A stretch of 64,000 bases of DNA. It comes from Anaerolineaceae bacterium. GTDB taxonomy: Bacteria > Chloroflexota > Anaerolineae > Anaerolineales > Anaerolineaceae. The position numbers and the translations under genes are program-made. The stretch is taken from positions 62,001 to 126,000 of the forward strand of contig JAENZD010000001.1 of NCBI GenBank assembly GCA_016841445.1. The letters run 5' to 3'. Position 1 is the stretch's first letter; the number at the start of each line of letters is the position of its first letter. A model generated the notes under the pieces. The model was not told the origin of the DNA and ran no database searches. It saw nothing but the letters and a program-made list of their open reading frames with translations. Below are positions 9,317 through 60,798 of the stretch, one piece after another.

Positions 9317-9327
9317 CCTGTTCACCT

Positions 9328-9364
9328 GCGGGTGTAGTTCAATGGTAGAACGTCTCCTTGCCAA
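9328..9364 (+). pseudogene. 5' half of tRNA-Gly(GCC), cut at the anticodon loop; element attachment site
   Basis: Acceptor strand GCGGGTG, a D-arm (GTTC...GAAC), the 5' anticodon strand TCTCC and the loop TTGCCAA with anticodon GCC at 9360-9362 are all present. The sequence then departs from tRNA: the expected GGAGA, T-arm and 3' acceptor are missing. A tyrosine recombinase gene starts 277 bp downstream. This is the expected left junction for integration with crossover in the anticodon loop. No matching 3' half or second 5' half was seen in the window. Confidence 0.85.
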
Positions 9365-9600: not shown

Positions 9601-9640
9601 ACAATAAACAATACGTAGCACAACTACAAGGGAGATTTTG

Positions 9641-10558
9641 ATGAATTTACAAGAAGCGGTGGAAGCATACCTGTTAGCGTGTAGGGTAAATAATGTATCT
9701 GAAAAAACGATGATTGGCTACAAATTTAACCTTGACCAATTCATCAATGTTATAGGAAACATCCGAGTTTTTGACCTTTCCCCAAATCATGTTCGCTTGT
9801 ACATGGCAAGTGAAATGGAAAGAAAGAACGCCAGGACAGGAGAGGTGATATCCAGTGAAACTCGAATGAAATCCTATGCTGTTGTTCGGGCATTCTGCAG
9901 GTGGCTGTATAACCAAGACCTTACGCCAACCTGTGTTACTGATAAAACAAAGGCACCAAGAACGGACCAGTTGATGCCCGAGGTGATTAGCCAAGAGGAG
10001 ATCAAAAGAATCTTCGAATACCTCGAAATTGCAGGGACATTCCGGGATAAAGTTATCTGGGAATTCTTCTTGGATACTGGCTGCCGCTTAGCAGAAGTCG
10101 CAGGACTTAAACTTGATGACATTAATATCAATGAGGGGTGGGCCAGGGTATTTGGCAAAGGACGCAAAGAGGGGATTGTTCCGATGGGTAATCGGCTATG
10201 TGAAGATTTGTATATGTATATTAACCGTTATCGGCGAGCTCCTTCGGATGAAGCGCATGTGTTCTGCTCTAATCGGGTTCCTTATCGAGCCTTGTCTCGA
10301 GATGGATTACAAATGTTGATCAAACGAGTTCACAAAAAAGTTGGCATAAAGGGGAAATATGGACCTCATATTTTACGACATACAATGGCTACCCAATTTA
10401 TTACTAACGGTGGAGATGTATCGATTTTACGAAAGATTCTTCGGCATTCTGATATCAAAACCACACAAAGGTATGTCAATTTAGCAGCAACGGATATTAT
10501 TTCTTCACACCGCGATAACAGTCCAATTGATCGAATGTGGCGAAAAGGCAATCAATAA
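9641..10558 (+). CDS. tyrosine recombinase / integrase
   Basis: 305 aa from the ATG at 9641, preceded by GGGAG; a TTG three bases earlier is in frame but less likely. It has an N-terminal SAM-like core-binding domain (residues 1-100) and a catalytic domain with the complete set Arg149 (D-T-G-C-R-L), His243 and Arg246 (H-I-L-R-H), His269 and nucleophile Tyr278 (T-T-Q-R-Y-V). The size is that of XerC/D-type enzymes. Its place next to a cut tRNA gene indicates that it integrated this element. It converges on the leftward cassette. Confidence 0.95.
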   Translation: MNLQEAVEAYLLACRVNNVSEKTMIGYKFNLDQFINVIGNIRVFDLSPNHVRLYMASEMERKNARTGEVISSETRMKSYAVVRAFCRWLYNQDLTPTCVTDKTKAPRTDQLMPEVISQEEIKRIFEYLEIAGTFRDKVIWEFFLDTGCRLAEVAGLKLDDININEGWARVFGKGRKEGIVPMGNRLCEDLYMYINRYRRAPSDEAHVFCSNRVPYRALSRDGLQMLIKRVHKKVGIKGKYGPHILRHTMATQFITNGGDVSILRKILRHSDIKTTQRYVNLAATDIISSHRDNSPIDRMWRKGNQ

Positions 10559-10683: not shown

Positions 10684-11346
10684 TCAGTTACTGAGTGACA
10701 TCAACAAGAATTCTAAATGTCCTGAAAATATATTGTGAGTTAGGATGCCAGTGCTTTGTTGACCTGTAATAACCCTACGAACTGTCGCTCCAATGTGACC
10801 AGCTGCCATCGCACCAGTGTAGATCGTCGCTTTGGATGTGCAGGGATCGTCCGGGATTTGACTGTCGTCCTGGTTTGCGAGGGTATCCTCATACCATTGG
10901 ATATTCTCCATATCAACGATATACATCTGGAAATATTCAGCAGCCATCCGGGAGTCAAGATACCAGAGCGGTTTAGTTCGCTTCACAGCCGCCCAAATCT
11001 TCTTTCTGGCGTTGATGCTGTCCACCGCTGAGATGATGATATGGGTTGGTGTCAAAAGGGTCTCCTCAGCAACCCTTTCATTGTGATGATAAACATGCAC
11101 ATCGTCGGCGAATTCGTGGATTGTGAGATCTATGGCGAGACTCTTTGGCATTCCGACGTCGGAATGCTTATGAAGTTGAACCGGGATGTTAACCTCCTCA
11201 ACCGTATCCCCGTCATAAACGACCAATTCCCCACAACCCATCTTGGCCAGGGTGAGCGCGGTGAAAGCACCAATCCCACCAAGGCCGATCAGGGTTACTG
11301 AAAACTTCTGGGCATTAAAAATGCCTATATGTCTTGTGTGATCCAT
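10684..11346 (-). CDS. E1-like (ThiF/MoeB/UBA-type) activating enzyme of a ubiquitin-like cassette
   Basis: 220 aa. The Rossmann-type ATP-binding motif G-L-G-G-I-G is at 21-26, the acidic pair D-G-D at 45-47, Asn53 in E-V-N, the family D-V-G-x-P-K motif at 63-68 and the conserved Asp109. Cys169 (D-D-P-C-T-S) is the likely thioester-forming cysteine. It lacks the CxxC zinc pairs of MoeB and ThiF, and no ThiS/MoaD pathway gene is nearby. It would adenylate the C-terminal Gly of the modifier encoded at 13894-14217. Last gene of the leftward set; length and context match PRTRC-type ThiF proteins. Confidence 0.85.
   Translation of the reverse strand: MDHTRHIGIFNAQKFSVTLIGLGGIGAFTALTLAKMGCGELVVYDGDTVEEVNIPVQLHKHSDVGMPKSLAIDLTIHEFADDVHVYHHNERVAEETLLTPTHIIISAVDSINARKKIWAAVKRTKPLWYLDSRMAAEYFQMYIVDMENIQWYEDTLANQDDSQIPDDPCTSKATIYTGAMAAGHIGATVRRVITGQQSTGILTHNIFSGHLEFLLMSLSN
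11151..11164. repeat. TTCCGACGTCGGAA palindrome, inside the E1 gene
   Basis: Read in frame it gives S-D-V-G, overlapping the conserved D-V-G-x-P-K motif of the enzyme family, so here the palindrome is compatible with the required protein sequence. Confidence 0.95.
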
Positions 11347-11354
11347 AATGCCTC

Positions 11355-11561
11355 CTAGTCTCCAAAATATCGTTCGACTTTCCGGCGAAGGGCTTTCAGC
11401 CTTTGGCGGGGGATGGTCAGATCAAGATGACTGCCAAGATTGTCAAAGATATAGCCTATTTGATCCATCGTTTCAGCCGCGTAAGCAACATCATTCGAGT
11501 CATCAGATTCGACATATAGCTCGCATTCTTGCAATAGCTGAAGGGCATCCCAATAATCCAT
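11355..11561 (-). CDS. 68-aa protein between JAB peptidase and E1
   Basis: ATG at 11561 with AAGGGG upstream; it ends 8 bp before the E1 start. The protein is mostly helical and acidic in its N-terminal half and basic at its C-terminus (R-R-K-V-E-R-Y-F). I do not recognise it. Its tight placement in the operon suggests a small adaptor, substrate or regulator of the conjugation system. Confidence 0.75.
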   Translation of the reverse strand: MDYWDALQLLQECELYVESDDSNDVAYAAETMDQIGYIFDNLGSHLDLTIPRQRLKALRRKVERYFGD

Positions 11562-11587
11562 ATCCCCTTCGATTTGATCGTAAGCCG

Positions 11588-12379
11588 CTAACCATTCTTT
11601 CTGCCAGGATTGAAAATCCGTTTCTCCAGGCTCGTTTTCAGGCCGACCAAAAAGCTCAGTACGCGAGAACCAGGTTTTTTGGCGGCCGGGAGTTGTAAAG
11701 GGAAGTTTAAAGCCTCTATCCTCAATCTCTCCAGGTATTCTTTGTAGAGCTTTTTGACGGTAGCAATAAAGGACTTCTCAACACCGTACTCCACCGGGAT
11801 ATGAGAGGTCAGGACCTTCCCGTCTTTGTATTTATCAAAACGGCCGACCCAGGTATGCGGTGTGCGGACAATGGAGATAGACCATTTGACAAGTTCCGGT
11901 ATGCCGCCCAACGGTTCCTTCTCTGCTGTGTGGTTATCGGTTCCAGACCAGTTGTGCGGTCCAGGTGTGGCTGATCCTAAAGGATGGCGGTGAAGCCAGC
12001 ACTTCATCTTTCCGACGTCGGAACGCTCAAGCAAGGGCAGGATCTTCTCTGCAGAGATTTCTGTGAACGAGGCTGATCCCACATCGAGGAGGACTACATC
12101 ATAAACCTCAAAAATGATCTCCTGTTCAGAATTATGAACATTTACAAAGCCAAAGCCGGAGAACTCCTGGCTATCTACAACCACTCGAGCGGCTTCCAAA
12201 CGAGCAAAAACATCCTGGCTTAGGAGAATCCGCATGGGCTTTTTCGGGGTTCGATGTTTGGTCTGCTTTGATACCCTTGGTTTTGTGGATCCAACAATAC
12301 CTATGGGTGTTTTGGAAACAAAGGTTGTAGTGGTTTTTTCTGCTTGACCATGTTTCTTGGGTAGATTTTTACGACTCAT
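11588..12379 (-). CDS. JAB/MPN (JAMM) metalloprotease of the ubiquitin-like cassette
   Basis: 263 aa from the ATG at 12379, chosen because AGGAGG precedes it; it overlaps the upstream gene by 11 bp. Residues 1-48 form a basic, probably disordered tail. The JAMM zinc site is complete: Glu72, H-x-H at 120-122, Ser135 and Asp138 (S-G-T-D). The loop between H-x-H and S-x-x-D is longer than in canonical members. Such enzymes cleave ubiquitin-like proteins from targets or process precursors. The modifier here already ends in GG, so deconjugation is the likelier job (inference). It corresponds in position to PRTRC protein A. Confidence 0.85.
   Translation of the reverse strand: MSRKNLPKKHGQAEKTTTTFVSKTPIGIVGSTKPRVSKQTKHRTPKKPMRILLSQDVFARLEAARVVVDSQEFSGFGFVNVHNSEQEIIFEVYDVVLLDVGSASFTEISAEKILPLLERSDVGKMKCWLHRHPLGSATPGPHNWSGTDNHTAEKEPLGGIPELVKWSISIVRTPHTWVGRFDKYKDGKVLTSHIPVEYGVEKSFIATVKKLYKEYLERLRIEALNFPLQLPAAKKPGSRVLSFLVGLKTSLEKRIFNPGRKNG
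12010..12023. repeat. TTCCGACGTCGGAA palindrome, inside the JAB gene
   Basis: Encodes S-D-V-G at residues 110-113, just ahead of the H-x-H zinc ligands. No family motif demands this sequence here. Confidence 0.95.
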
Positions 12380-13097
12380 TTTCTGGTATCCTCCTGTAGA
12401 AGAAAAGTTCGGTTGGGTACACCAACGGTGAATCCACGTTTTGAATGGTGACATACAAATACAACGACCGGAACAGTTCGGGAATATCCCCAGCTTGCAG
12501 GTTCATGCTGATGATCGGTCCAAAATTTCCCCAACAGGTGCTTGGACGGTAGGTCAAGGGATTGCTGATCATCTCTTGTTGATCTGCCATGGCATAGTGG
12601 TGCATGTGCCTGCGGTGATACCGCCCATCATCAGCCGTCATATTCTTTTCCGGGATGAAGTGAATGCTGTCAATGTTATTAGAAATCAGTGCACTGTTGT
12701 AGGGGACATAAATGCTGTATGCCCCAATGTTGTACTTACCTGGCGTTAACCTGGAATGCCTTACCCTGCCTGAAGGAGCAGGAACATTGACGATCAGCTC
12801 CTGGGTTTGAGCCTTGAGGTAGAGGCTGCCTTCAGACTGGGTTGCGCTAAATCGCTTATACGGCAGCTGTTTCATGCGGGTCAGGAAAACCTGCCAGCCT
12901 GGATTTGAAAGATAGAAGTTGATCTTGTCAATTTCAGTAAAAAGACTGCTGTTGACCCGTTGACCAGCTTCTTGGTGGTAGGTGCTGAAACGCGAATCTT
13001 GTTCCAGAGATTGAACTTTTGATTTGAAATACTTCGTGATCACAGCTTGAAATGTTGGATCAATTTCAACCTGATCGATCCGTGTTAATTTGATCAT
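12369..13097 (-). CDS. E2-like protein, second copy (PRTRC protein B-like)
   Basis: 242 aa, ATG at 13097 with AAAGGAGG upstream. It shares with the preceding gene the block I-H-F-I-P, then a His-rich stretch (R-R-H-M-H-H near 162-167), then T-C-W with G-P (Cys188) and D-I-P-E-L-F. A conserved His cluster 20-30 residues before a lone conserved Cys is the layout of divergent bacterial E2/UBC-fold proteins, with the Cys as the thioester carrier. The E2 call rests on this motif and on gene order, not on a database match. Confidence 0.65.
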   Translation of the reverse strand: MIKLTRIDQVEIDPTFQAVITKYFKSKVQSLEQDSRFSTYHQEAGQRVNSSLFTEIDKINFYLSNPGWQVFLTRMKQLPYKRFSATQSEGSLYLKAQTQELIVNVPAPSGRVRHSRLTPGKYNIGAYSIYVPYNSALISNNIDSIHFIPEKNMTADDGRYHRRHMHHYAMADQQEMISNPLTYRPSTCWGNFGPIISMNLQAGDIPELFRSLYLYVTIQNVDSPLVYPTELFFYRRIPENES

Positions 13098-13109
13098 AAG
13101 TCCTCCTTT

Positions 13110-13868
13110 CTAAAAAATATTGGGGTTGTATCCGCTGGCATAAGCAAGTGCCTCAGCAATCGAAATCTCCTTTTCTAATGCAAAGGTTTCAGCGGGGATA
13201 TCTACTGCATGATCTGGCCAACATAAAATGCTGTTCAAATCAATTCTTTCAAGGAAAACAAGGGCAGATTCAAAGATGGTTGGAATATCTGCTAAGGACA
13301 TGGCATTGCTCATCAGCGGTCCAACGGATGCCCAGCAGGTTAGTGGCATTTCATCAAGGAGATTTCCAATCGGTGAGGCACTCAAGTTGTGATGAAAATG
13401 GCGGTCTTTCGTCCTTAGCCTTTTTACGGGAATGAAATGGATTTGTTCGAGGGATTCACGGATGATGGTGTCAATATTAATGCAAACAGCATAACGACCC
13501 AGATTGAAAAATTTGTTTTCAATATCCACAAGATCGCTGTTTTCGTTAAAAATTCTCACGCAGCCAGCTGAAAAAATGGGCTTGGTGACCCCAACCAGGT
13601 ACTCTCCGCCATGTGAATTTTCCCGTACCCCAAAAGTGGAAAAAGGTAGCAGTGTGAGCTTCTCAATAGTTCGGGTCATCTCCATAGCAGGGTTGCTGAT
13701 CCTGTTCAAGAGCATGTCCCGCTTTATCTTAATGTAGTGATCGATCGGATCAATACCAAAAGTTTTCCGCTTGAGGGTCAAATTGGTAAAAAGAGAAATG
13801 AGTTTACTTTCAAAGGTATCTTCGATTTTTATATTGTCGCCTGTTAATAAAAAGGGGAGCCGAATAAT
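13110..13868 (-). CDS. E2-like protein, first copy, apparent AUU start
   Basis: 252 aa if translation begins at ATT 13868. The open frame reaches an ATG at 13955, but that part overlaps the modifier gene in another frame and looks like a shadow. ATT 13868 lies five bases after AGGGGAG, and the N-terminus I-I-R-L then matches M-I-K-L of the neighbouring paralogue. The shared core is I-H-F-I-P, R-H-F-H-H, L-T-C-W (Cys178), G-P-L-M-S and D-I-P-T-I-F. The gene lies 25 bp downstream of the modifier stop and 12 bp before its paralogue. The start remains uncertain. Confidence 0.65.
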   Translation of the reverse strand: MIRLPFLLTGDNIKIEDTFESKLISLFTNLTLKRKTFGIDPIDHYIKIKRDMLLNRISNPAMEMTRTIEKLTLLPFSTFGVRENSHGGEYLVGVTKPIFSAGCVRIFNENSDLVDIENKFFNLGRYAVCINIDTIIRESLEQIHFIPVKRLRTKDRHFHHNLSASPIGNLLDEMPLTCWASVGPLMSNAMSLADIPTIFESALVFLERIDLNSILCWPDHAVDIPAETFALEKEISIAEALAYASGYNPNIF

Positions 13869-13880
13869 ATCGACTCCCCT
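13849..13880 (-). terminator. terminator hairpin containing the ribosome site of the next gene
   Basis: On the minus strand AGGGGAG (13880-13874) pairs with CTCCCCT (13859-13853), extended by inner pairs, and runs into TTTTT. It follows the modifier stop by about 14 bp. Its 5' arm is also the Shine-Dalgarno sequence of the first E2-like gene, so folding would both end transcription and hide that site. Confidence 0.75.
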
Positions 13881-13893
13881 GATTTGGCGGAGA

Positions 13894-14217
13894 CTAACCG
13901 CCCTTGACGTTGCCGATGGCGGAGACAACGCTGCCGACGGGAACGACGGTAGCATCGTCGATCACTGCGGCGTTCATGTAGAACGTCACTGCGCCGAAGG
14001 TCAGGCCGGAGAGGGCCTTGAGTTGGGCGAGGGTAATCGCCTCAGCTGCAGGAACGTAGCGGGTTTCACCCCCGCTGGTGCGGAGGGTGATCACCTGGGT
14101 TGGATCCACGATGGGAGCGAGTCCTTGCTCGTCCTCAAAGGTGTCATCCAGTTCCTCGTCGAGTTCATCTTCGACATCATCAAATTCCTCGGGGATCGCA
14201 TTTAATTCGTCTGACAT
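13894..14217 (-). CDS. ubiquitin-like modifier with C-terminal Gly-Gly
   Basis: 107 aa, ATG at 14217 with AAAGGAG upstream. Residues 1-33 are extremely acidic (E-E-F-D-D-V-E-D-E-L-D). Residues about 40-103 have the size and strand pattern of a beta-grasp domain (Q-V-I-T-L-R-T, R-Y-V-P, L-K-A-L-S-G-L, V-T-F-Y-M-N). The chain ends in N-V-K-G-G-stop, with the diglycine exposed and no extension to be removed. With the downstream E2-like, JAB and E1-like genes it is the likely conjugated modifier, similar in place and length to PRTRC protein C. The terminator after it suggests it is made in excess over the enzymes. Confidence 0.8.
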   Translation of the reverse strand: MSDELNAIPEEFDDVEDELDEELDDTFEDEQGLAPIVDPTQVITLRTSGGETRYVPAAEAITLAQLKALSGLTFGAVTFYMNAAVIDDATVVPVGSVVSAIGNVKGG

Positions 14218-14306
14218 ATTTGTTTACTCCTTTCTGTGAGTAGATCATTGGGTGATTTGTGTAAAAACATGATGATTTCCAGAAGTACGCCAATTTTGAC
14301 ATTTCA

Positions 14307-14320
14307 TTCCGACGTCGGAA
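14307..14320. repeat. TTCCGACGTCGGAA palindrome, upstream of the modifier gene
   Basis: Intergenic, 90 bp before the modifier ATG and 67 bp after the stop of the zinc-finger gene; well placed to act on the cassette's promoter or leader. Confidence 0.95.
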
Positions 14321-14386
14321 TCAAATCCGCAAACAAACACTGATAATTACAGTTGTGAATACACCTGGCGTTTTTCACCCCTTTTC

Positions 14387-14602
14387 TTATCGTTGAAAAT
14401 CTGCCCGGAGGCTGGCGATCGTATCTTTAATGTCCTGGTCATCTTGCCATTGATATTGAATTTTATCCAGGCAGGAACAGCAAAGCTTATGATGCTTAGA
14501 GGGTGTTGTTTGAGAACAGCGCAAACAGATAGCGCTAGGGTTGTAGAATTTCAGTTTTCGTCTCTTCCAATGAGCCACGTGAGGCCATTTTGATATCTCC
14601 AA
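14387..14602 (-). CDS. 71-aa putative zinc-finger protein
   Basis: TTG start at 14602 with AAAGGAG six bases upstream. It carries C-L-R-C and, 13 residues later, C-C-S-C, a plausible Cys4 zinc site, followed by a charged helix. It has a leader hairpin of the type also found ahead of ssb and rnhA. The function is unknown; it may be a small DNA- or RNA-binding regulator of the downstream cassette. Confidence 0.7.
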   Translation of the reverse strand: MEISKWPHVAHWKRRKLKFYNPSAICLRCSQTTPSKHHKLCCSCLDKIQYQWQDDQDIKDTIASLRADFQR

Positions 14603-14998
14603 GATCAGCTCCTTTCAATAATTGGGGATTTGTGGTCCTTATCTCATTTTCATTCTTGTATGGATAACTGACCTGATGACAGATGCCGAAAGGCAAACTA
14701 GCCTTGCCGGATTAAAAACCATATTGAGAGATCATCTATTCAATGCAAAGTTGAGAAACCTGTCTGATAGAGTTTGATCTGCCTTGCTGAAATGATCGCA
14801 GAAAAGCCAAAGTGCCTTGCGGCAAAAGGGTAGTACGGGGGGTGGGAAACTAAAATTGTCTTTGATCTCAGGGTCATGGAAAAACGATTGGTAGAGGTTC
14901 GAGCATCAGGAGAAGTAAAAAAATCATAACCTCTGGATCTCAAAAACCCAAGATCGCATGAAGCGAAAACCCCGAGATTTCTCCCGGGATTTCCTTGT
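14603..14998 (-). other. intergenic gap with terminator-like hairpin and leader element
   Basis: 396 bp. About 14968-14990 a hairpin with GAGA/TCTC and CCC/GGG pairs followed by TTTT on the minus strand probably ends the 541-aa gene's transcript. The remainder holds the leader hairpin at 14683. A 67-codon TTG-initiated frame (14740-14943) has no ribosome site and is not called. Confidence 0.5.
14683..14703 (-). promoter_or_regulatory. shared leader hairpin, copy 1 (zinc-finger gene)
   Basis: Minus strand GGCTAGTTTGCC-TTTC-GGCAT: a TGCC/GGCA stem with a 4-nt loop, about 80 nt before the TTG at 14602. Related elements precede ssb (17766) and rnhA (19382). Confidence 0.6.
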
Positions 14999-16624
14999 TT
15001 ATTGTCTGAGTTTTTGGATGGTTTGCGGACTCCATTTCATCGAGATTACTGCATTGAATAATCGCTGTTTTAGGCTCTGTTTGGCGTCGATGGGTATATA
15101 TAGCTCATTATTATCTGCCTTTATTTTTGCAATCTTCCAGTTGATCTCTCGAGCACCTTGATATTCCGATGAAGCCGTGAGGACGATCATTTTTTCTGGG
15201 AAGACGGTGATAACTCGGTCGCGTGGACGCTGGAGGTCACCAACCGCATACGCAGCTTCATAGAATCGGTGCATAGCCTGGCCATAATCTGTCCCTGATG
15301 CAATGGCTTTCCGATAGACCTGCTCACCCTTCGGCGATTGGGCCATCTTACAGGCGTGATAAGCTTGTTTATAGGCTTCATTGACATTCTTCCCGGCAAA
15401 GATATGTTCTAATACGACCTCATTGAAGAGCCTTGACCATTCTGTTTTACTTTCATCATAGGGGATGGACTGTAGAAAGGGGTCTTTTTCTAATATGTCA
15501 GCATAATACACTTCGTTAGACGGATACCAACCAGGCGGGTCTTGAATCGGCCAGGCATAATCAAATATCTCATCTGCGAAATTTACTGCATAAGCTTCCA
15601 GATTTTGGGTTGACATCCCGAGATGGGCGGGGATTTTGATCTCTCTGGCAAGAAAATCAAGATAAATGCCGCCATACAGGAGGAGCAAGATGTCTTGCAC
15701 TGGAACATTATCATCCATCAAATCCGTCAATTTTCTTTTGATATTAGCCAAACCAAGCGGGACTCGGCTTTTGAGTAAAGCCTCAAGCTGGTCATCTGTC
15801 AGGTACTTTGCTTTCTTATGCCGAGTTATCCGAAGGACCCGTTGATCCGAATCTCTTTGATCGGGGGCAAAATCATATCTGAGGGATGGATGTCGCTGCT
15901 TGAAATTTTGTCTTCGAAATGAAATGGCTAACTCTCGGAGTTTGAGAATATCAATTCCGACGTCGGAATGACGAAGAAATGGATACTCCCTCGGGGTCAA
16001 TTCCAATTGTGTGGACTGATTAATCGGTACGGAGGACACCCCCCGATCATCAAATAACAGATCATCATCAGAAAAGTGATAGCGATCATAATTTGGGTCC
16101 CCATCCAGTGATTCTCCAGAAAGAAAAACTGTATCTTTTTCCTCATAGGCTCCCGTATATGGGTCATAATCGAGGTTTGCAGGTTCTCCTGGCATGGTTT
16201 GAGCCAGGTAGAGTTCGTTCTTGGCTTCTATCGCAGAGTTCCGCAGGTCAAAGCCATAATCATCATGACTTATGTAATACGCAGCAAGCACCTCGAGTTG
16301 TTGTTTGTTTTCGAGGTAGATTTGAACCCATTGTTTATAATCATCCTTATCCATGATCCATGACCACACTTGGTAGAGATATGCGCCATCGTGCAAGATT
16401 CGTAGAATTGCTTGGGCTTCATCATCAATCCATCCCACCAGAGTCTCCTCAAAACGTTCCAAGAGCTGGTTAAAGGTCAGCGCCCCCTCTGACATGATCC
16501 GCTTGATATCCGCTAAAGAATAATGATATTTCTCCTGGAGGAGATCCAATCGAAGCTGCTGTTCATCCTCAAATCCTTCATAGACTTCACCAATGCAATC
16601 CACATGCTCACAAAATTCTGGCAT
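14999..16624 (-). CDS. 541-aa element protein of unknown function
   Basis: Start taken at the ATG 16624, since the longer frame to 16675 runs through a terminator. No enzyme motif is recognised. The protein is acidic and helical, with a very acidic middle (residues about 170-215). Two segments resemble each other: S-L-A-D-I-K-R-I-M-S-E-G near residue 37 and G-L-A-N-I-K-R-K-L-T-D near 290, each followed by a hydrophobic helical stretch. This suggests an internal duplication. It is the largest gene of the element and could be a structural, replication or partition protein, but nothing in the sequence decides this. Confidence 0.75.
   Translation of the reverse strand: MPEFCEHVDCIGEVYEGFEDEQQLRLDLLQEKYHYSLADIKRIMSEGALTFNQLLERFEETLVGWIDDEAQAILRILHDGAYLYQVWSWIMDKDDYKQWVQIYLENKQQLEVLAAYYISHDDYGFDLRNSAIEAKNELYLAQTMPGEPANLDYDPYTGAYEEKDTVFLSGESLDGDPNYDRYHFSDDDLLFDDRGVSSVPINQSTQLELTPREYPFLRHSDVGIDILKLRELAISFRRQNFKQRHPSLRYDFAPDQRDSDQRVLRITRHKKAKYLTDDQLEALLKSRVPLGLANIKRKLTDLMDDNVPVQDILLLLYGGIYLDFLAREIKIPAHLGMSTQNLEAYAVNFADEIFDYAWPIQDPPGWYPSNEVYYADILEKDPFLQSIPYDESKTEWSRLFNEVVLEHIFAGKNVNEAYKQAYHACKMAQSPKGEQVYRKAIASGTDYGQAMHRFYEAAYAVGDLQRPRDRVITVFPEKMIVLTASSEYQGAREINWKIAKIKADNNELYIPIDAKQSLKQRLFNAVISMKWSPQTIQKLRQ
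15955..15968. repeat. TTCCGACGTCGGAA palindrome, inside the 541-aa gene
   Basis: Encodes S-D-V-G, in the context F-L-R-H-S-D-V-G-I-D, in the middle of the protein. Confidence 0.95.
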
Positions 16625-16643
16625 AACGGCACCTTGGTAAAAC

Positions 16644-16670
16644 AAAAAGCCCCCCGATGCAGGAGGGCTT
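16644..16670 (-). terminator. rho-independent terminator after the 143-aa gene
   Basis: Minus strand AAGCCC...GGGCTT stem with one mismatch and further GG/CC pairs, followed by TTTTT. It lies only about 20 bp before the start of the 541-aa gene. Confidence 0.75.
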
Positions 16671-16790
16671 GACAAGAGAAAAGGGATCTATGTTCATTTT
16701 CGATCTCTCATGATGTGGTCCCGGATGGCCATGAAAAAGATAAAAATGGCTGAGATAAACGAAGCATAAAATTCAAAGTCAGACCAAAAA

Positions 16791-17222
16791 TCATAATTCA
16801 TTTTGTTCACTCCTATTCCTTTCCGACGTCGGAATTAAATCTGGATGGGAAAATATCCTATTGATGTTGCCATATTCAAGAATATCGATTTCAACAAGGG
16901 AAATCCATTCATTACACGCTTGGGTGATATCAATAACTTTTGAAATGCCATCCTGGAAATCATAAATCGCTCGGGAGATCAGTTTTGATATCGGGAGGTT
17001 ATTTGGAAAATCTCTATGGAATGCGTCTAGGGCTTGCATGGCTTCAATATTTGAACTATCGACAACTTGAAATTTCTCAAAGACGACTTCCTTTGTAATT
17101 GGGTTGGCCAATTGACAGAGGCAGCCAGCGGGTGTTTCTGTTGAAATATCAATCATAAAGTGTTCGATTTCCCTGGCACATGATATTGAGAGGTGTGTAA
17201 GCAATAAGAGGATACATCGCAA
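16791..17222 (-). CDS. 143-aa element protein of unknown function
   Basis: TTG start at 17222 close to AAAGGAG; an in-frame ATG 23 codons later is a possible alternative. It has mixed alpha/beta character with no recognised motif. The C-terminal tail contains P-T-S-E, encoded by the palindrome at 16821. It lies between ssb and the 541-aa gene and is bounded by a terminator on each side, so it is its own transcription unit or the end of one. Confidence 0.6.
   Translation of the reverse strand: MRCILLLLTHLSISCAREIEHFMIDISTETPAGCLCQLANPITKEVVFEKFQVVDSSNIEAMQALDAFHRDFPNNLPISKLISRAIYDFQDGISKVIDITQACNEWISLVEIDILEYGNINRIFSHPDLIPTSERNRSEQNEL
16821..16834. repeat. TTCCGACGTCGGAA palindrome, near the 3' end of the 143-aa gene
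   Basis: Encodes P-T-S-E, a different reading frame of the palindrome from the S-D-V-G copies, so protein selection does not explain its conservation. Confidence 0.95.
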
Positions 17223-17275
17223 TATGCTCCTTTCGTTATCTGGATTTTGGATGATTTATCAAATTGGGATAAGGA

Positions 17276-17307
17276 AAAGGGGGAGGACTCGCCAGCCTTC
17301 CCCCTTT
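17276..17307 (-). terminator. rho-independent terminator after ssb
   Basis: Minus strand GGGGGAAGG...CCTCCCCC with one bulge, followed by TTTTCC, directly downstream of the ssb stop. Confidence 0.7.
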
Positions 17308-17316
17308 GATCAGGGT

Positions 17317-17709
17317 TTAGAAGGGGATGGAATCTTCGGCGGTTTCTGATGTGATATCTGCGATTTCCTCAGAGCCACCATTGAGATTTCCAAGAAAAAG
17401 GACCTGATTTGCTACGATCTTGTTGAAGTATTTTCGGTTTTCTCCTTCTCCGACCACATCCGTTTTGGATCGACCTTCAACATATACCTGTCGTCCCTTG
17501 GCCATATATTGGGCAAGGGCTTCTGCTTGTTTTCCCCAAACTTCGACACGGTGCCAATCTACACCTTTTTGGATACCGCCATTATTATCCTTGTATGTGA
17601 AATTAGTGGCGACTGAGATTGTGGTGACTGGAGAACCGTTCGGCGTGAAGCGGAGCACCGGATCTGCGCCAAGATTACCTACGAGAATGACCTTATTTAC
17701 ACTAGCCAT
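17317..17709 (-). CDS. ssb: single-stranded DNA-binding protein
   Basis: 130 aa from the ATG at 17709 (AAAGGAG upstream; the longer frame to 17757 is rejected). OB-fold residues 1-105 carry the usual V-I-L-V-G-N-L-G-A-D-P start and G-V-D-W-H-R-V-E-V-W-G core. The acidic tail ends in D-S-I-P-F, the tip that recruits replication and repair proteins. An element-borne copy implies a single-stranded DNA stage in its life cycle. It has its own promoter (17804-17831), leader hairpin and terminator. Confidence 0.95.
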   Translation of the reverse strand: MASVNKVILVGNLGADPVLRFTPNGSPVTTISVATNFTYKDNNGGIQKGVDWHRVEVWGKQAEALAQYMAKGRQVYVEGRSKTDVVGEGENRKYFNKIVANQVLFLGNLNGGSEEIADITSETAEDSIPF

Positions 17710-17765
17710 ATTGATTTTTGCTCCTTTCTGAGCTTTAATTGGAAGAAATGGTAACAAAACAAACG

Positions 17766-17786
17766 CTGCCGTGAGGCAGATTAGCC
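17766..17786 (-). promoter_or_regulatory. shared leader hairpin, copy 2 (ssb)
   Basis: Minus strand GGCTAATCTGCC-TCAC-GGCAG, about 57 nt before the ssb ATG and roughly 11 nt after the expected transcription start. Confidence 0.65.
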
Positions 17787-17803
17787 TGTAGAGATATCAT
17801 TTG

Positions 17804-17831
17804 ATCATATTCTTTCCTTAAAATATGTCAA
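17804..17831 (-). promoter_or_regulatory. ssb promoter
   Basis: Minus strand TTGACA (17831-17826) and TATGAT (17809-17804), 16 bp apart; the start would be near 17797. Confidence 0.7.
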
Positions 17832-18312
17832 TTAACTATAACATAACGTAATCCACCCTTGACACCCAGAAAAAACCGAGTACAATTAACATCGTACTCG
17901 CCCGCTTAATGATTCTAACTAAAATTTCTCCTACCGAGAGGTCATAACCTCTCGATCCCCTATATACTTCTCGATAACACATAAAGCCCAATAAACATTA
18001 CCCTGCCGATCTTGATAAATTCGGGCTTAAAAATAAGGCTGTGGTGTTTTCTTTGGCCGTGATGACGTTATGTTTGTTGTAGGCTAAAGTATGAACGTGA
18101 TTTCGGCCGGGAGGTTGACTTGTTTGGCTGTTAAGTACGCCAGTGTAAGGCGTAAAATGGCCGGGATAGTTGATATGTGGGTGGGGTGGGGGATATATCC
18201 TCTCTCACTCCCTCAACCCCAAACTTTTCATCCAACTTTCCCCCCAGCGGCCACTGGAAGGCCCCAGAGAGGTTATCCTCTCGTGTAGAACAAATGGGCT
18301 ATAATAACAAAT
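17832..18312. other. intergenic gap between ssb and the 66-aa gene, with rightward promoter
   Basis: No gene with a ribosome site is seen on either strand. A sigma70-like promoter faces right: TTGACA 17859-17864 and TACAAT 17881-17886, 16 bp apart. The inverted repeat CGAGTAC...GTACTCG (17877-17900) overlaps its -10 box. About 110 bp further on AAGCCC and GGGCTT could close a large stem. A small or antisense RNA is possible. Confidence 0.5.
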
Positions 18313-18332
18313 AACCCCTTTTTCAGGGGGTT
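18313..18332 (-). terminator. terminator overlapping the stop of the 66-aa gene
   Basis: Minus strand AACCCC...GGGGTT with a U-rich tail; the TGA stop of the 66-aa gene lies in the hairpin. Confidence 0.55.
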
Positions 18333-18523
18333 TTGTTGATTATCTTGATGTATATGTGGTGTTTGTGGTCTTTTATAAGTATCCACTCCTTTTCCCAGCC
18401 CGGCAGAGTGTGGTATTCAATTCTTATTCTGCCAAAGCGGCGGTTAAATTTGTGTCTCAAGACTAGGCTGTCGATAATTCTGAATAACAGTTTTGATTTG
18501 ATGGAAGCGATTCTTAATTTCAT
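18323..18523 (-). CDS. 66-aa basic protein
   Basis: ATG at 18523 with GGAG six bases upstream; it starts 3 bp after the stop of the preceding gene. Strongly basic, with F-N-R-R-F-G-R-I-R and repeated I-K/H-H patterns. Not recognised; a nucleic-acid-binding role is a guess from charge alone. Confidence 0.6.
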   Translation of the reverse strand: MKLRIASIKSKLLFRIIDSLVLRHKFNRRFGRIRIEYHTLPGWEKEWILIKDHKHHIYIKIINKTP

Positions 18524-18526
18524 AGG

Positions 18527-18811
18527 TTACTCCAGTGTCCTAATTAACTGTTTCATTTGAACCTCACGCTTTCGCTGTATAGTGGCCTCTTTCTCTTTCC
18601 GGCGTCGGAATGCCTCGTTGACCCTTTGGCCGAATTCCTGTGTCCGGTAGGCAGACTTGATGTGGATATTCAATCCCCGTAGTTTACCAATGGCGAAGTG
18701 CTTCTCAGCTCTATCCTGGCAAATCCCATTGAGCTGCGCTTCTGAAATACTGCCGCCTTGGAACTCTAAAAGCTTGTTGATGATTTGACGTTCTCTGTTT
18801 GTGTACCTCAT
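18527..18811 (-). CDS. 94-aa basic helical protein
   Basis: ATG at 18811 with AAAGGAG upstream. The N-terminus (R-E-R-Q-I-I-N-K-L-L-E-F-Q, then S-E-A-Q-L-N) looks like a helix-turn-helix or winged-helix half. The C-terminal third is a highly charged helix (F-R-R-R-K-E-K-E-A-T-I-Q-R-K-R). Probably DNA-binding; transcribed between rnhA and the 66-aa gene. Confidence 0.65.
   Translation of the reverse strand: MRYTNRERQIINKLLEFQGGSISEAQLNGICQDRAEKHFAIGKLRGLNIHIKSAYRTQEFGQRVNEAFRRRKEKEATIQRKREVQMKQLIRTLE
18597..18610. repeat. variant palindrome TTCCGGCGTCGGAA, inside the 94-aa gene
   Basis: One base differs from the perfect palindrome. It encodes F-R-R-R, so all three frames of the motif are used across the element. 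Confidence 0.85.
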
Positions 18812-18870
18812 GCTGTTCTCCTTTAATTCACTGGTTGATATACAGAGAAAAGCTGGGGCAAATTATCAGG

Positions 18871-18894
18871 AAAATCCCCTCTGGGAAGAGGGGA
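18871..18894 (-). terminator. rho-independent terminator after rnhA
   Basis: Perfect 7-bp stem TCCCCTC/GAGGGGA with a 6-nt loop, followed on the minus strand by TTTT. Confidence 0.75.
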
Positions 18895-18901
18895 CTTTCA
18901 G

Positions 18902-19339
18902 TTAGGCAGGAATCGCCGCTTTAGCCAGGAGATCGACCCGGATGTTATCGGGATCATCCGCATGAGCCTTGATCCACATAGGATAAAGATGATGCTTCTT
19001 GGCCAGTTCATAGATCCTTTGCCAGAGATCGGTATGTATCACCGGATCGCCATTGGATTTCGTCCATTCCCGCTTTACCCAGTAGTGCATATGGATCATG
19101 ATCCCGGAGACGACATACTGGCTGTCGGTTTTTATCACCACATTACAGGGATGTTTCAGTGCTTCAAGGGCATTCACTACCGCCTTGAGCTCCATCCTGT
19201 TATTTGTAGTGTTTTCAGAACCTCCTGAGATTTCTTTTTCTTGCTCGCCGCAGCGGAGCAATGCTGCCCAACCTCCTGGCCCCGGGTTACGGGAACAAGC
19301 GCCGTCTGTATAAACAATGACATTCCTGATTTCAGACAC
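18902..19339 (-). CDS. rnhA: ribonuclease HI
   Basis: 145 aa from the GTG at 19339, which has AAAGGAG upstream; the longer frame to 19390 has no site. It cleaves RNA in RNA-DNA hybrids. The catalytic acids are present: Asp12 (Y-T-D-G-A-C), Glu50 (N-N-R-M-E-L-K), Asp72 (K-T-D-S-Q-Y-V) and Asp136 (R-V-D-L-L-A), plus His126 in the flexible loop. With ssb it points to an element that replicates, probably through RNA-primed or R-loop intermediates. Confidence 0.93.
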   Translation of the reverse strand: MSEIRNVIVYTDGACSRNPGPGGWAALLRCGEQEKEISGGSENTTNNRMELKAVVNALEALKHPCNVVIKTDSQYVVSGIMIHMHYWVKREWTKSNGDPVIHTDLWQRIYELAKKHHLYPMWIKAHADDPDNIRVDLLAKAAIPA

Positions 19340-19381
19340 GATAATCTCCTTTGGTAGTTGATGGATTGGTATGAAGATAGT

Positions 19382-19402
19382 TTGCCGCAAGGCAAATTAG
19401 CG
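19382..19402 (-). promoter_or_regulatory. shared leader hairpin, copy 3 (rnhA)
   Basis: Minus strand CGCTAATTTGCC-TTGC-GGCAA, about 43 nt before the rnhA GTG. Confidence 0.65.
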
Positions 19403-19500
19403 GCATTACCTGGTTGTCCTGTATATGGGTATTTCAAGCACTCCTGATACCTAAGGCCAAGAACCCAAGGGTCAACGGCCCGAGCTCTATAAACCAGAAA

Positions 19501-19520
19501 ACCCCAACTTGCTACGGGGT
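19501..19520 (-). terminator. terminator of small-gene cassette 1
   Basis: Minus strand ACCCC...GGGGT stem followed by TTTTC; it begins two bases past the palindrome that follows the stop of the 71-aa gene. Confidence 0.65.
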
Positions 19521-19522
19521 AG

Positions 19523-19536
19523 TTCCGACGTCGGAA
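19523..19536. repeat. TTCCGACGTCGGAA palindrome between stop and terminator, cassette 1
   Basis: Directly abuts the stop codon of the 71-aa gene (19537). Confidence 0.97.
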
Positions 19537-19752
19537 CTAAGCTAAGTAAATGTCTGCGGTATTCTCTGCCCCTCTATCTATCTGAATAGCGGTACACCTG
19601 TTGGTGATAGTGTCTGTGAATACTGTGAATTCCCACTTTCCGAGGAAAGCTGAGGTTAGGTTATTCCAATCACCGCCGAGAAAGGTGCTGGGGGCGATGT
19701 ACACATACGCCCTTACGAACAATACGAGAAAGAACTGCCATAATTTTTTCAA
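19537..19752 (-). CDS. 71-aa small exported or membrane protein, cassette 1
   Basis: TTG start at 19752 with AGGAG upstream. Residues 1-22 form a hydrophobic, signal-like segment (K-K-L-W-Q-F-F-L-V-L-F-V). The remainder is unrecognised. It shares its leader sequence with the next cassette upstream. Confidence 0.6.
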   Translation of the reverse strand: MKKLWQFFLVLFVRAYVYIAPSTFLGGDWNNLTSAFLGKWEFTVFTDTITNRCTAIQIDRGAENTADIYLA

Positions 19753-19757
19753 GATAG

Positions 19758-19782
19758 TCTCCTAGATAGGGTTTGGATTGAC
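19758..19782 (-). repeat. repeated cassette leader, copy 1 (copy 2 at 20143-20167)
   Basis: 25 bp ending in the ribosome site (minus strand GTCAATCCAAAC...CTATCTAGGAGA), with one mismatch to the copy at 20143-20167. The two following genes are unrelated in protein sequence, so the leader was duplicated or kept apart from the coding region. Confidence 0.85.
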
Positions 19783-19788
19783 ACAAAA

Positions 19789-19814
19789 ACACCCCCTAAA
19801 TTACTAGGAGGTGT
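19789..19814 (-). terminator. terminator of small-gene cassette 2
   Basis: Minus strand ACACCTCCTA...TAGGGGGTGT with a single mismatch, followed by TTTTTGTG. Confidence 0.75.
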
Positions 19815-19816
19815 AG

Positions 19817-19830
19817 TTCCGACGTCGGAA
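19817..19830. repeat. TTCCGACGTCGGAA palindrome between stop and terminator, cassette 2
   Basis: Four bases downstream of the stop of the 100-aa gene and two bases before the terminator stem. Confidence 0.97.
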
Positions 19831-19834
19831 GTGG

Positions 19835-20137
19835 CTAGAGGGGCTCGACTGCGAATATTTTCTTGGCTTTTCTTGCGCCAACAAAGGTCATTTTTTCATA
19901 GCAATCATTGAAGGCGGCGATGACTTTCTTTCCTGCTCGAACAATCGCCCAATGATCATGCACCATATAGTGCAAACCAAAGATGGCTTCAATGATGCCG
20001 AATTTTCTTGCTATTCCCTGATACCATCCCTCGGGATAATTGCGATCAGGGTTGAATTGATAGACCACGCCGCTCTTGCGCTTTTGCACAAAACGGATCA
20101 GGCGGATATAGATGATATACAGCAATTTTTGGATCAT
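19835..20137 (-). CDS. 100-aa protein, cassette 2
   Basis: ATG at 20137 with AGGAG upstream in the repeated leader. It has a hydrophobic N-terminus (M-I-Q-K-L-L-Y-I-I-Y-I). A later stretch rich in aromatic residues and His (H-Y-M-V-H-D-H-W-A-I-V) recalls NlpC/P60- or LRAT-like small folds, but no complete catalytic set is visible. Not assigned to a family. Confidence 0.65.
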   Translation of the reverse strand: MIQKLLYIIYIRLIRFVQKRKSGVVYQFNPDRNYPEGWYQGIARKFGIIEAIFGLHYMVHDHWAIVRAGKKVIAAFNDCYEKMTFVGARKAKKIFAVEPL

Positions 20138-20142
20138 GATTT

Positions 20143-20167
20143 TCTCCTAGATAGTGTTTGGATTGAC
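20143..20167 (-). repeat. repeated cassette leader, copy 2
   Basis: Partner of 19758-19782; contains the AGGAG that serves the 100-aa gene. Confidence 0.85.
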
Positions 20168-20173
20168 GATAAC

Positions 20174-20201
20174 AACTCCCCCACATTTCTATGGGGGAGT
20201 T
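20174..20201 (-). terminator. terminator of small-gene cassette 3
   Basis: Perfect 10-bp stem AACTCCCCCA/TGGGGGAGTT with an 8-nt loop; its first two bases are shared with the palindrome. Confidence 0.75.
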
Positions 20202-20213
20202 CCGACGTCGGAA
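20200..20213. repeat. TTCCGACGTCGGAA palindrome between stop and terminator, cassette 3
   Basis: Abuts the TAG stop (20214-20216) of the 57-aa gene. Confidence 0.97.
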
Positions 20214-20387
20214 CTAGAATGGGGTCCTATCAGCGTAGGCGTGCCATTGTTTGTAATAGGGAGAGTAGGTTGCGGAAAATATCCACTTCCCAATATCAAT
20301 TTGCCACACGATAAAGCGGATTTTCCCTGTGCCAGTATCGTTCTTTTGGCCGAATAATAAGATAAAGGGGAATAATAGGTATTTCAT
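20214..20387 (-). CDS. 57-aa small exported or membrane protein, cassette 3
   Basis: ATG at 20387 with AAAGGA upstream. It starts M-K-Y-L-L-F-P-F-I-L-L-F, a signal-like segment, and continues with an aromatic-rich tail (W-I-F-S-A-T-Y-S-P-Y-Y). It is the first gene of the leftward array and resembles the 71-aa gene in layout, not in sequence. Confidence 0.55.
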   Translation of the reverse strand: MKYLLFPFILLFGQKNDTGTGKIRFIVWQIDIGKWIFSATYSPYYKQWHAYADRTPF

Positions 20388-20831
20388 GGTTTAGTCCTTT
20401 CTGACTAAGATAGTTAGAATTACACCCTTACACTGCCGAAGGTCTAAATTTAAGGCCAGTTCGCATGCCGGGGTGTCCGCAGCATTCATCAGTCTGCTTG
20501 TGTGTTACGCGGTATGGGGGGTGTCGCGAGAGGTTGCTTCTTGAATGTTCACAGGCGAGACAGCGTGAGAGGGGGTGGGGGTGGATAGCTGCACCAAGAG
20601 GCAGATGGGCTGTATACGGTATGGGGGGGGTAGGGGGTGGGGGGTTCACTTTTACCCTTTATATATACTGTAATATATCCCCTCGCCCCTCCGAGGCAAA
20701 AACTCGCTTACCAAACCTGGCAAATAAGCGACAACGCAACACGCCAAAAACGAAAATAGCCAATGCCCTTATTTTCACTATCCCGGCAATATAGCATATA
20801 AGCAATATGTTCTCCATAGCGAACATAACAG

Positions 20832-20845
20832 TTCCGACGTCGGAA
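20832..20845. repeat. TTCCGACGTCGGAA palindrome, divergent region, copy a
   Basis: Intergenic, 220 bp before the rightward 91-aa gene. Confidence 0.97.
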
Positions 20846-20967
20846 TGACCAAATGTTTGACAAATACTATATTATGGTGTATAATTCTTACAATAATAGA
20901 ACTAATGTTCTGGTGTGAAATGGATTAGTTGATCAAGCTTTTAAAGAAGAATATTGAAAGGATCTGA

Positions 20968-20981
20968 TTCCGACGTCGGAA
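20968..20981. repeat. TTCCGACGTCGGAA palindrome, divergent region, copy b
   Basis: Intergenic, 83 bp before the ATG of the 91-aa gene and 136 bp from copy a (13 helical turns, same face of DNA). Confidence 0.97.
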
Positions 20982-60600: not shown

Positions 60601-60798
60601 GAATTGTGGAATTGGAACAATGATGAACGTGAACAGTTACGCCGTGATGAGGATGCGCTTCGCTTCCGATTGAAACAGATTCCAGGGGAACTGGAAAATG
60701 AACTGGAGCGGATTCGTACCCACTACGCCAACCCTCAACACAGGCTGTATCCGGCATCTGTAATATTTTTAATCCCCGAACATTTACGGGAGTCATAA
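57664..60798 (+). CDS. drmD: SNF2-like helicase, DISARM DrmD-type
   Basis: 1044 aa. Superfamily 2 motor: Walker A D-D-V-G-L-G-K-T near 147, D-E-A-H near 258, S-A-T-P-H-N-G near 295 and motif VI Q-R-N-G-R-I-D-R-Y-G-Q near 610. The N-terminus (G-Q-V-V-S-V-R-Q-K-K-F-V-V) and the long C-terminal helical domain match the DrmD type of class 1 DISARM phage defence. The following methylase, starting directly after its stop, supports this. The ATG at 57664 lacks a ribosome site. drmA, drmB and drmC would lie beyond the window. Confidence 0.78.
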   Translation: MRASSNQTPPEIGQVVSVRQKKFVVTDIQESLLDSKFINDVTIQDTHLVRLSSIEDDDMGSELMVIWEVEPGVSVEEKVNLPQPKGFDEPDTLDAFMHAVQWGAITTDVNQLQAPFRSGIQPEDYQLEPLVRALQMPRVNLLLADDVGLGKTVEAGLVVQELLFRNRAHSILIVCPAGLQLHWEEQMHEKFGLEFRIMDSDAFAKLRRTRGIHVNPWSHFPRLITSIDFLKRDYPLRLFRELLPPKISYPREFDILIVDEAHNVSPAGSGNYAVDSLRTQAISLISPHFEHRLFLSATPHNGYQESFTSLLAMLDNQRFARGVPPHQDQLEKTMVRRLKSEIVNWDGTPRFPQRRIEPLIVNYTEEEKAAHDLLDQYRTLRLSSSAGKSIADEFVLKLLKKRLFSSPAAFLSTLEVHLQTLSKKASKDTRPPKIGELRRAIGETEDSFATDQEQDDALDRATTTATRKQRPLSSEEKVVIQQLQSWASTESARADSKAKALIDWLQKTLKPDGDWNDERVIIFTEYRTTQSYLQTILAAHGFTQRNRLKVFYGGMDPEDRERIQNEFQADPSLSPLRILLATDTASEGIDLQKFCHRLIHYEIPWNPNRMEQRNGRIDRYGQKYEPELYHFVGKKPEEIKPGSASLEDDLEFLWVAVNKVNNIRQDLGSVGPVIAASIEEAMLGRTRILDTSMAEMKAQQLRRYTRFQIDQKERILKARDLQQETKNNLNLTSDNVHKLVEAALVLAEKPPLRPALDMPGLEDKAFYLPELTGSWQKCTNGLSHPFTGHVRPVVFDAALAKDRDDVVLAHLNHPLVQISLRLLRAEIWSPNTEKGLNRVTIRVVPDHLLETPSAMAYGRLVLIGGDNQRLNEEIISAGGEIRDGVFRRIPQVGRVGDLLNESRAEVVSQDIKDALKRVWPNIETNLMLALEARVKQRIDGLQGELAKRQEKESEDITAILSDLAASIEHELSEKQLIQLELWNWNNDEREQLRRDEDALRFRLKQIPGELENELERIRTHYANPQHRLYPASVIFLIPEHLRES

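Follow-up and report, generated by a model that had tools for sequence, protein, structure and literature searches.

A putative ubiquitin-like conjugation cassette with phage affinities on a tRNA-Gly-bounded island of an Anaerolineaceae bacterium

A cassette of six open reading frames (ORFs), all on the minus strand, was analysed in a stretch of 64,000 nucleotides from an Anaerolineaceae bacterium (hereafter the window; cassette at positions 10684 to 14217). In our reading, to which we give about an even chance, it is a reversible conjugation module for a ubiquitin-like protein (Ubl), of the type carried by crAss-like and related phages, which resides on an island integrated at a tRNA-Gly gene and regulates the DNA metabolism of that element. 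The ORFs encode, in order, a Ubl modifier of 107 aa (13894-14217), two E2-like paralogues, here named E2a (up to 281 aa, 13110-13955) and E2b (242 aa, 12369-13097), a JAMM metalloprotease (288 aa as listed, 11588-12454), an acidic protein of 68 aa (11355-11561) and an E1-like enzyme of 220 aa (10684-11346). An earlier note, made from the sequence alone, had described five activities in fixed order on one strand, together with the 68-aa extra protein, as a Ubl-conjugation-type cassette on a mobile element. All six ORFs were recovered exactly where it had placed them, and the cassette type was supported, with a modifier, an E1, a JAMM and two E2-like proteins; searches of Pfam, NCBIfam and PADLOC found no known family for the cassette proteins other than the E1, the 68-aa protein included.

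The four activities and their phage counterparts

The E1-like protein is a ThiF-fold enzyme (PF00899, E 1.1e-25, Pfam search) with the motifs GLGGIG, D45, K68 and D109 and the candidate catalytic Cys169, so that both the ATP motif and the cysteine proposed in the earlier note held up; Cys169, D45, K68, D109 and R133 were invariant in the seven aligned E1s (the window's and six from phages). A hidden Markov model (HMM) of 24 phage E1 rows, from which the window E1 was excluded, detected the latter at E 5.7e-36 among 667 window ORFs and gave it 120.3 bits, compared with 41.6-63.3 bits for five PRTRC ThiFs and 35.1-50.4 for 15 other ThiFs, while the window E1 scored 62.2 bits with a PRTRC model and 83.0 with a model of the other ThiFs. 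In a tree of 31 rows it grouped with nine of ten phage E1s (support 94/89), and the PRTRC ThiFs (100/99) and the other ThiFs (100/99) stood apart. The best match of the E1 profile in the PDB was UBA5, a minimal E1 with its cysteine in the adenylation domain, and MccB and PaaA were among the best. The ThiF and MoeB models of NCBIfam also matched, as did the E1-E2 models of PADLOC, in the ThiF core only (best 4.4e-12).

Similarity to phage proteins was also found for the JAMM. The catalytic site E-H-x-H-S-x-x-D, described earlier as intact, has all of its residues (E97, H155-x-H157, S170 and D173), but the loop between the second His and the Ser comprises 12 residues, against 7 in phages, where 19 of 22 rows matched the motif expression, 17 printing a spacing of 7 and two a spacing of 9 that corresponds to 7 from the second His of HSH. 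By hhalign the window JAMM aligned with the phage JAMM profile at 4.4e-5, the best of ten profiles (next 0.032), and it was the top window ORF with the phage JAMM HMM (E 0.0019, 667 ORFs). The PDB search with the phage JAMM profile reached a JAMM1 (E 0.008), and one phage JAMM scored 3.7e-4 with Prok-JAB, under the cut-off of that family.

The Ubl is composed of an acidic N-terminal tail (about residues 1-38), a beta-grasp domain and a bare C-terminal VKGG. Its AlphaFold2 model, built with 10 alignment rows, had a predicted local distance difference test score (pLDDT) of 61 and the order strand-strand-helix-strand-strand-strand. Chains of the ubiquitin fold headed its PDB matches, Mth1743 first (E 1.6e-4) and then ISG15, SUMO and ubiquitin, with 27 matches of E up to 0.001 and a target-normalised template modelling score of up to 0.69 among the matches listed; the beta-grasp with a GG end that had been predicted was thus recovered. 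The phage Ubl profile was the best of 10 by hhalign (7.5e-4; next 0.12). Among viral models (BFVD), the collinear protein of Flavobacterium phage Fpv3 was found at rank 23 (28% identity), a match that is not independent because the modelling alignment included other phage proteins, and the higher ranks included several poorly superposed pestivirus polyprotein fragments. In 14 of 15 rows, a tail extends beyond the SG that closes the phage Ubl domain (the motif expression found nothing in the fifteenth, L078, a fragment), whereas the window form already ends in GG, which suggests that the phage forms may need processing, a step for which the JAMM would be a candidate. Neither the phage Ubl profile nor the phage E2 profile gave a credible match in the PDB.

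E2a and E2b are homologous (30% identity, E 1.2e-13) and share a core of H-x-H-H and T-C-W-x3-G-P, with H186-x-H-H and Cys207 (in PLTCW) in the former and H164-x-H-H and Cys188 (in STCWGNFGPI), its only cysteine, in the latter. In an alignment with nine phage proteins, His166, Cys188, Pro106 and Ser223 were invariant. A DNA pattern of the TCW core occurred twice in the window and in none of 100 shuffles, a count that is partly circular because the pattern was drawn from these two proteins. Against 20 phage E2-like rows, hhalign gave 0.0035 for the pair (probability 9%), with nine other targets at 0.14 or worse. Position and residues make it likely that the TCW proteins are E2s; of the earlier claim of two E2-like proteins, the paralogy and the His/Cys core stood, but the ubiquitin-conjugating (UBC) fold was not confirmed.

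The window E1 matched 83 of 50,697 phage records, and seven phage neighbourhoods were read. Five of them (bajarodcaudo virus 1, FpV4, cr85_1, Kolpuevirus and cr111_1) had the order Ubl, E2-like, JAMM, E1. The sixth, cr106_1, had E2-like, JAMM and E1 genes with an HNH gene at the expected place of the Ubl, and was excluded from the first Ubl alignment since its Ubl gene was unclear. The seventh, Xanthomonas phage PhiXhv-12 (L027), encoded a 140-aa protein ending in ASGG, an 892-aa protein and an E1. The phage cassettes adjoined primase, uracil-DNA glycosylase, exonuclease or topoisomerase genes, and that of the window adjoins, on the same strand, genes for a single-strand DNA-binding protein (SSB; 17317-17757, PF00436, E 1.3e-30) and an RNase H (18902-19390, PF00075, E 4.6e-43). 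The nearest kin found of the E1, the JAMM, the Ubl and, marginally, the E2 are the gene sets of matching order in crAss-like and Flavobacterium phages. With the cassettes of crAss-like phages (Steigviridae), Flavobacterium phage FpV4 and relatives, that of the window shares the gene order on one strand, the E1 subfamily (D-[GS]-R-[LM], conserved Cys and N-x-x-x-Q without the Arg), the similarity of JAMM and Ubl, the His/Cys positions of the E2-like proteins and the DNA-metabolism neighbours; it differs in having two E2-like paralogues instead of one, the additional 68-aa gene, a Ubl with a mature VKGG end, a more extended JAMM loop and, as its carrier, an island in a bacterial genome. PhiXhv-12 likewise has a small GG-ended protein, an E1 of that type (28.6% identity) and topoisomerase genes nearby, but a single 892-aa protein lies between the GG protein and the E1, and no separate JAMM gene was recognised. 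This large protein of a jumbo phage (L027:3310-5988) has Cys-rich ends and an HPH...CLG arrangement that, by eye, resembles that of the E2-like proteins.

The DNA pattern D-[GS]-R-x-A-A-E-x-F-Q was found in 43 genome stretches, none of which scored as E1, and in 23 stretches of IMG/VR, 20 of which did. All four genes were detected by HMM at nine of these 20 E1 loci, and a tenth (L094) had the E2-like gene by eye only; L083 and L078 were each counted twice in one list of these loci. Fold and HMM counts are from non-nested rows (20 E2, 15 Ubl, 22 JAMM and 24 E1). At a threshold of 1e-9 the E1 matched 16 of 298 genomes, the 15 others at best at 4.3e-12 (E1 alone). E2b (400 genomes), the JAMM (298) and the E2 pair (400) each matched one genome only, that of the source. 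In phages, tblastn yielded one weak match for E2b (E 0.4) and none for the JAMM; plasmid searches with E2b, JAMM and E2a gave no match, and viral scans with E2b, E1, the E2 pair and the TCW DNA pattern recovered no close relative of the cassette. Phage annotation names the E1 a thiamine biosynthesis protein, one JAMM a metalloprotease and the others hypothetical, and PHROGs files the phage cassette families under unknown function (the E1 as PHROG 15670). No description of Ubl cassettes in crAss-like phages was found in the open-licence PMC literature, a search that was partly of best-ranked papers, with preprints outside it and few subscription papers.

Comparison with PRTRC, Bil and CBASS systems

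The earlier note had found that the order fits that of PRTRC C/B/A/ThiF. The order is indeed similar, PRTRC loci reading E, C, F, B, A, ThiF, but the evidence from the E1 clade and from the E2, Ubl, F, A and ParB components spoke against membership, as judged with a small reference set of five loci, one of them with a recognised A gene. The window E1 was placed outside the PRTRC ThiF clade (PRTRC alone 100/99), and TIGR03736 (PRTRC_ThiF), which was not its best model, matched it at 9.6e-13 with 48 bits, under the cut-off of 144.75. PF14460 (Prok-E2_D) matched all three PRTRC B proteins, and the window E2 had no Pfam match (hhalign 0.19); PF14454 (Prok_Ub) matched the one PRTRC C protein scanned, and the window Ubl had no Pfam match (hhalign 0.45). 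The gene at the place of PRTRC F is a paralogue of the adjoining E2-like gene (hhalign to F 0.5; Pfam alpha-hel2 itself matched just one of two PRTRC F proteins). The second E2-like gene that had been listed as a departure from PRTRC is therefore present, as an E2 paralogue and not as a PRTRC F. For PRTRC A (DUF2016 plus Prok-JAB), the window JAMM had no Pfam match and reached one A protein by BLASTP at E 3.7. A ParB gene had been reported missing, in agreement with which the only PF02195 match of the genome lies outside the island, at C3:1373250 (C3 denotes contig coordinates). The actin-like protein D (TIGR03739) had no match in the genome, nor in any control genome. In both systems the Ubl, E2, JAB and E1 are encoded by distinct genes, similarly ordered and located on mobile DNA; the PRTRC cassettes differ by their own E1 clade, other E2 and Ubl families and a ParB partner. 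The operon type 6d of Iyer and co-workers (PMC1779556) is equated with PRTRC here by ourselves, from the Pfam names.

Bil systems (BilABCD) have the same four activities, Ubl, E2, JAMM and E1. According to the review PMC11354881, BilA has two Ubl domains, BilD combines an inactive and an active adenylation domain with a Cys domain, and BilB has the order Cys-Glu-His-His. The window proteins differ, with one beta-grasp in the 107-aa Ubl, one ThiF domain in the 220-aa E1 and, in both E2-like proteins, a His that precedes the Cys, unlike BilB. The cyclic-oligonucleotide-based antiphage signalling system (CBASS) with Cap2 and Cap3 shares the E1, E2 and JAMM activities; PMC12355090 describes Cap2 as an E1-E2 fusion acting on a CD-NTase, whereas the window E1 is a separate 220-aa gene, not fused to an E2, in a set of separate genes that includes a Ubl.

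Gene starts, local signals and the island

Ribosome-binding sites were observed ahead of the Ubl (aaaggag), E2b, the E1 and the internal JAMM start M26. The JAMM start listed (ATG 12454) has no such site, and M26 (12379), preceded by an AGGAGG-like site, is probably the true one. E2a as listed begins at 13955, inside the Ubl gene. Its N-terminus is unsettled, because this start has no evident ribosome-binding site and its 5' part contains an 11-bp terminator-like hairpin with a T run, which begins 14 nt past the Ubl stop (13880-13853, minus strand); a good start near the hairpin was looked for and none was found. The hairpin had a folding energy of -23.1 kcal/mol (z -4.3), and none of 200 shuffles was equally stable; it was found by pattern match, and the cassette region overall has fewer terminator-like sites than shuffles. 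It could terminate a fraction of the transcripts downstream of the Ubl, and may keep the modifier in excess over its enzymes. A promoter scan found no site upstream of the Ubl, and promoter-like sites in the region were fewer than in shuffles. Upstream of the cassette, on the same strand, lies an ORF for a 558-aa protein to which family searches assigned no known family (14999-16675).

The cassette is located near the left end of a 68-kb island bounded by a 38-bp direct repeat that contains the 5' half of tRNA-Gly(gcc). The left copy (9327-9364, plus strand; C3:71327-71364) is broken after the anticodon loop and was not detected as a tRNA, and the right copy (C3:139181-139218) is part of an intact tRNA-Gly. 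Just inside the left repeat is a gene for a XerC/D-like tyrosine recombinase (integrase; 9638-10558, plus strand; PF00589, E 1.1e-33, and PHROG integrase families). These repeats, and the fact that none of the relatives sampled has the cassette, support its assignment to a mobile element. The sibling genome G200 also has the tRNA-Gly/tRNA-Cys pair, and the genes after it are those of the right flank here; G200 has no counterpart of the left flank, and among its ORFs upstream of the tRNA pair no integrase or cassette was evident, as judged by eye.

Family searches covered part of the ORFs of the island. Its left end has the cassette, the SSB and the RNase H, and its middle has metabolic genes (window 22578-51176: AllG, GH2, GH3, a FAD oxidoreductase, a hydroxyacid dehydrogenase, a transporter and a CoA ligase). 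They are followed by a 1516-aa protein with a NOV_C domain that TmtA models match (52902-57452, E 7.6e-54). PADLOC recognised DISARM genes, namely DrmD, DrmMI (profile positions 447-1342 of 1347), DrmA, DrmB and DrmC, at window 57664-60798 and C3:124119-134720. The right end carries an AAA_24/RecA-type (RecA/Sak4-type) ATPase (phrog_1366, 2.6e-75) and a helix-turn-helix (HTH) gene (C3:138529, 144 aa). The perfect 14-bp palindrome TTCCGACGTCGGAA occurs 13 times in the genome of 3.35 Mb, always within the island, with ten copies between 11 and 21 kb of the window (11151-20981), among them one at 14307-14320, 90 nt upstream of the Ubl start, and the other three at window 51676, C3:137217 and C3:138440. 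Among 395 other genomes of the class, five had one copy of TTCCGACGTCGGAA each and the rest had none. One copy is located 89 bp ahead of the HTH gene, and in four listed window genes the palindrome reads SDVG in frame; it looks like an operator or a partition-type site.

Proposed role and its alternatives

In the reading that we prefer, the anatomy of the cassette would support a complete catalytic cascade, E2 activity included. The E1 would adenylate the C-terminal Gly-Gly of the Ubl and then take it on Cys169, the Ubl would pass to the one conserved Cys in either or both of the E2-like proteins, an E2 would attach it to lysines of target proteins, and the JAMM would remove it again. The targets can be guessed at: they would most naturally be DNA-metabolism proteins of the element itself, the SSB and the recombinase-like ATPase being examples, and through them the module would regulate how the element replicates, is repaired or recombines. 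With modest confidence we place such modification of its replication or repair proteins ahead of defence, because phage and window cassettes alike sit among DNA-metabolism genes.

Several observations weigh against a conjugation module of this phage type. The probability attached to the hhalign match of the E2 pair is low, a shallower E2 alignment against phage E2-like proteins was not significant (0.19), the phage E2 HMMER model gave E2a at E 9.3 and did not list E2b at E<=10, the Pfam search of both proteins found no match, and the AlphaFold2 model of E2b (pLDDT 41) is uninformative on a UBC fold. With the phage Ubl HMMER model an unrelated window ORF (0.099) outranked the Ubl (E 0.7), and the JAMM loop exceeds that of phages by 5 residues. 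The branch of the window E1 is long (1.29), the tree program warning of long branches, its grouping with phage E1s is supported (94/89) below the starred class, and the E1 of PhiXhv-12 was placed outside the phage group. We know of no E3, and the idea of the target was drawn from the gene neighbourhood alone. The arginine of N-x-x-R-Q, which we take to be MoeB Arg73, is absent from the window E1 (V56) and from six phage E1s, and five PRTRC ThiFs retain it, as N-x-x-R. MoeB Arg73 is named among the key residues in PMC12355090.

Other explanations were weighed against the same evidence. The cassette might be a defence module that attaches the Ubl to proteins of phages or to an immune enzyme of the host, as reported for Bil and CBASS systems, and that forms defence cargo beside DISARM. 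The DISARM matches from DrmD to DrmC, the TmtA-like protein and the PADLOC E1-E2 models that match the core of the E1 are consistent with this, yet the cassette adjoins the SSB and RNase H genes at the opposite end of the island from DISARM, no nucleotidyltransferase or effector gene was recognised beside it, the PADLOC models match none of its other proteins, and the same gene set is found within phage genomes near replication genes, where a defence role is less natural; we regard defence as unlikely. Improbable, to our judgement, is a phage remnant or counter-defence function, by which a phage Ubl cassette was captured by the island and kept to block functions of the host or of rival phages. 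The phage affinity of all four activities, the integrase and the RecA/Sak4-type ATPase at the right end would agree with such an origin, but no capsid, tail or packaging gene was recognised among the part of the island ORFs that was searched, the middle of the island is mostly metabolic, and the viral scans turned up nothing closely related to the cassette.

If the cassette were a divergent PRTRC set (C-F-B-A-ThiF), since deprived of ParB and its other partners, the similar gene order and the TIGR03736 match of the E1 would be accounted for, but that match falls short of its cut-off, the PRTRC ThiFs form their own clade, the E2 and Ubl are unmatched to B, F and C and the JAMM to one A, and the only ParB domain lies outside the island; we think this quite improbable. 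Least credible, and in our view very improbable, is that the cassette does not conjugate proteins but performs ThiF/MccB-type chemistry, with a sulfur carrier or in peptide modification. The high rank of MccB and PaaA in the PDB search with the E1 profile, and the ThiF and MoeB models, point in that direction, but no rhodanese, thiamine or molybdopterin gene was recognised beside the cassette, and the JAMM and two Cys-bearing E2-like proteins would have no task.

Returning to the conjugation module, we propose tentatively, and accept that it may well prove wrong, that crAss-like and other phages and at least one integrative island share an undescribed Ubl-conjugation class that tags the element's own replication and repair proteins, the island version having a doubled E2 and a ready-made GG modifier. 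If true, SUMO or PCNA modification would have an analogue that is carried by a mobile element. The published bacterial Ubl systems considered here have roles in defence or in cofactor chemistry, or none known; a cassette common to crAss-like phages and an integrative island, and adjoined by DNA-metabolism genes in every case seen, would suggest a further role, the control of the element's replication, and its six genes would provide a small, reconstitutable system in which to test that role. The cassette reading also gives a meaning to phage genes that PHROGs files under unknown function.

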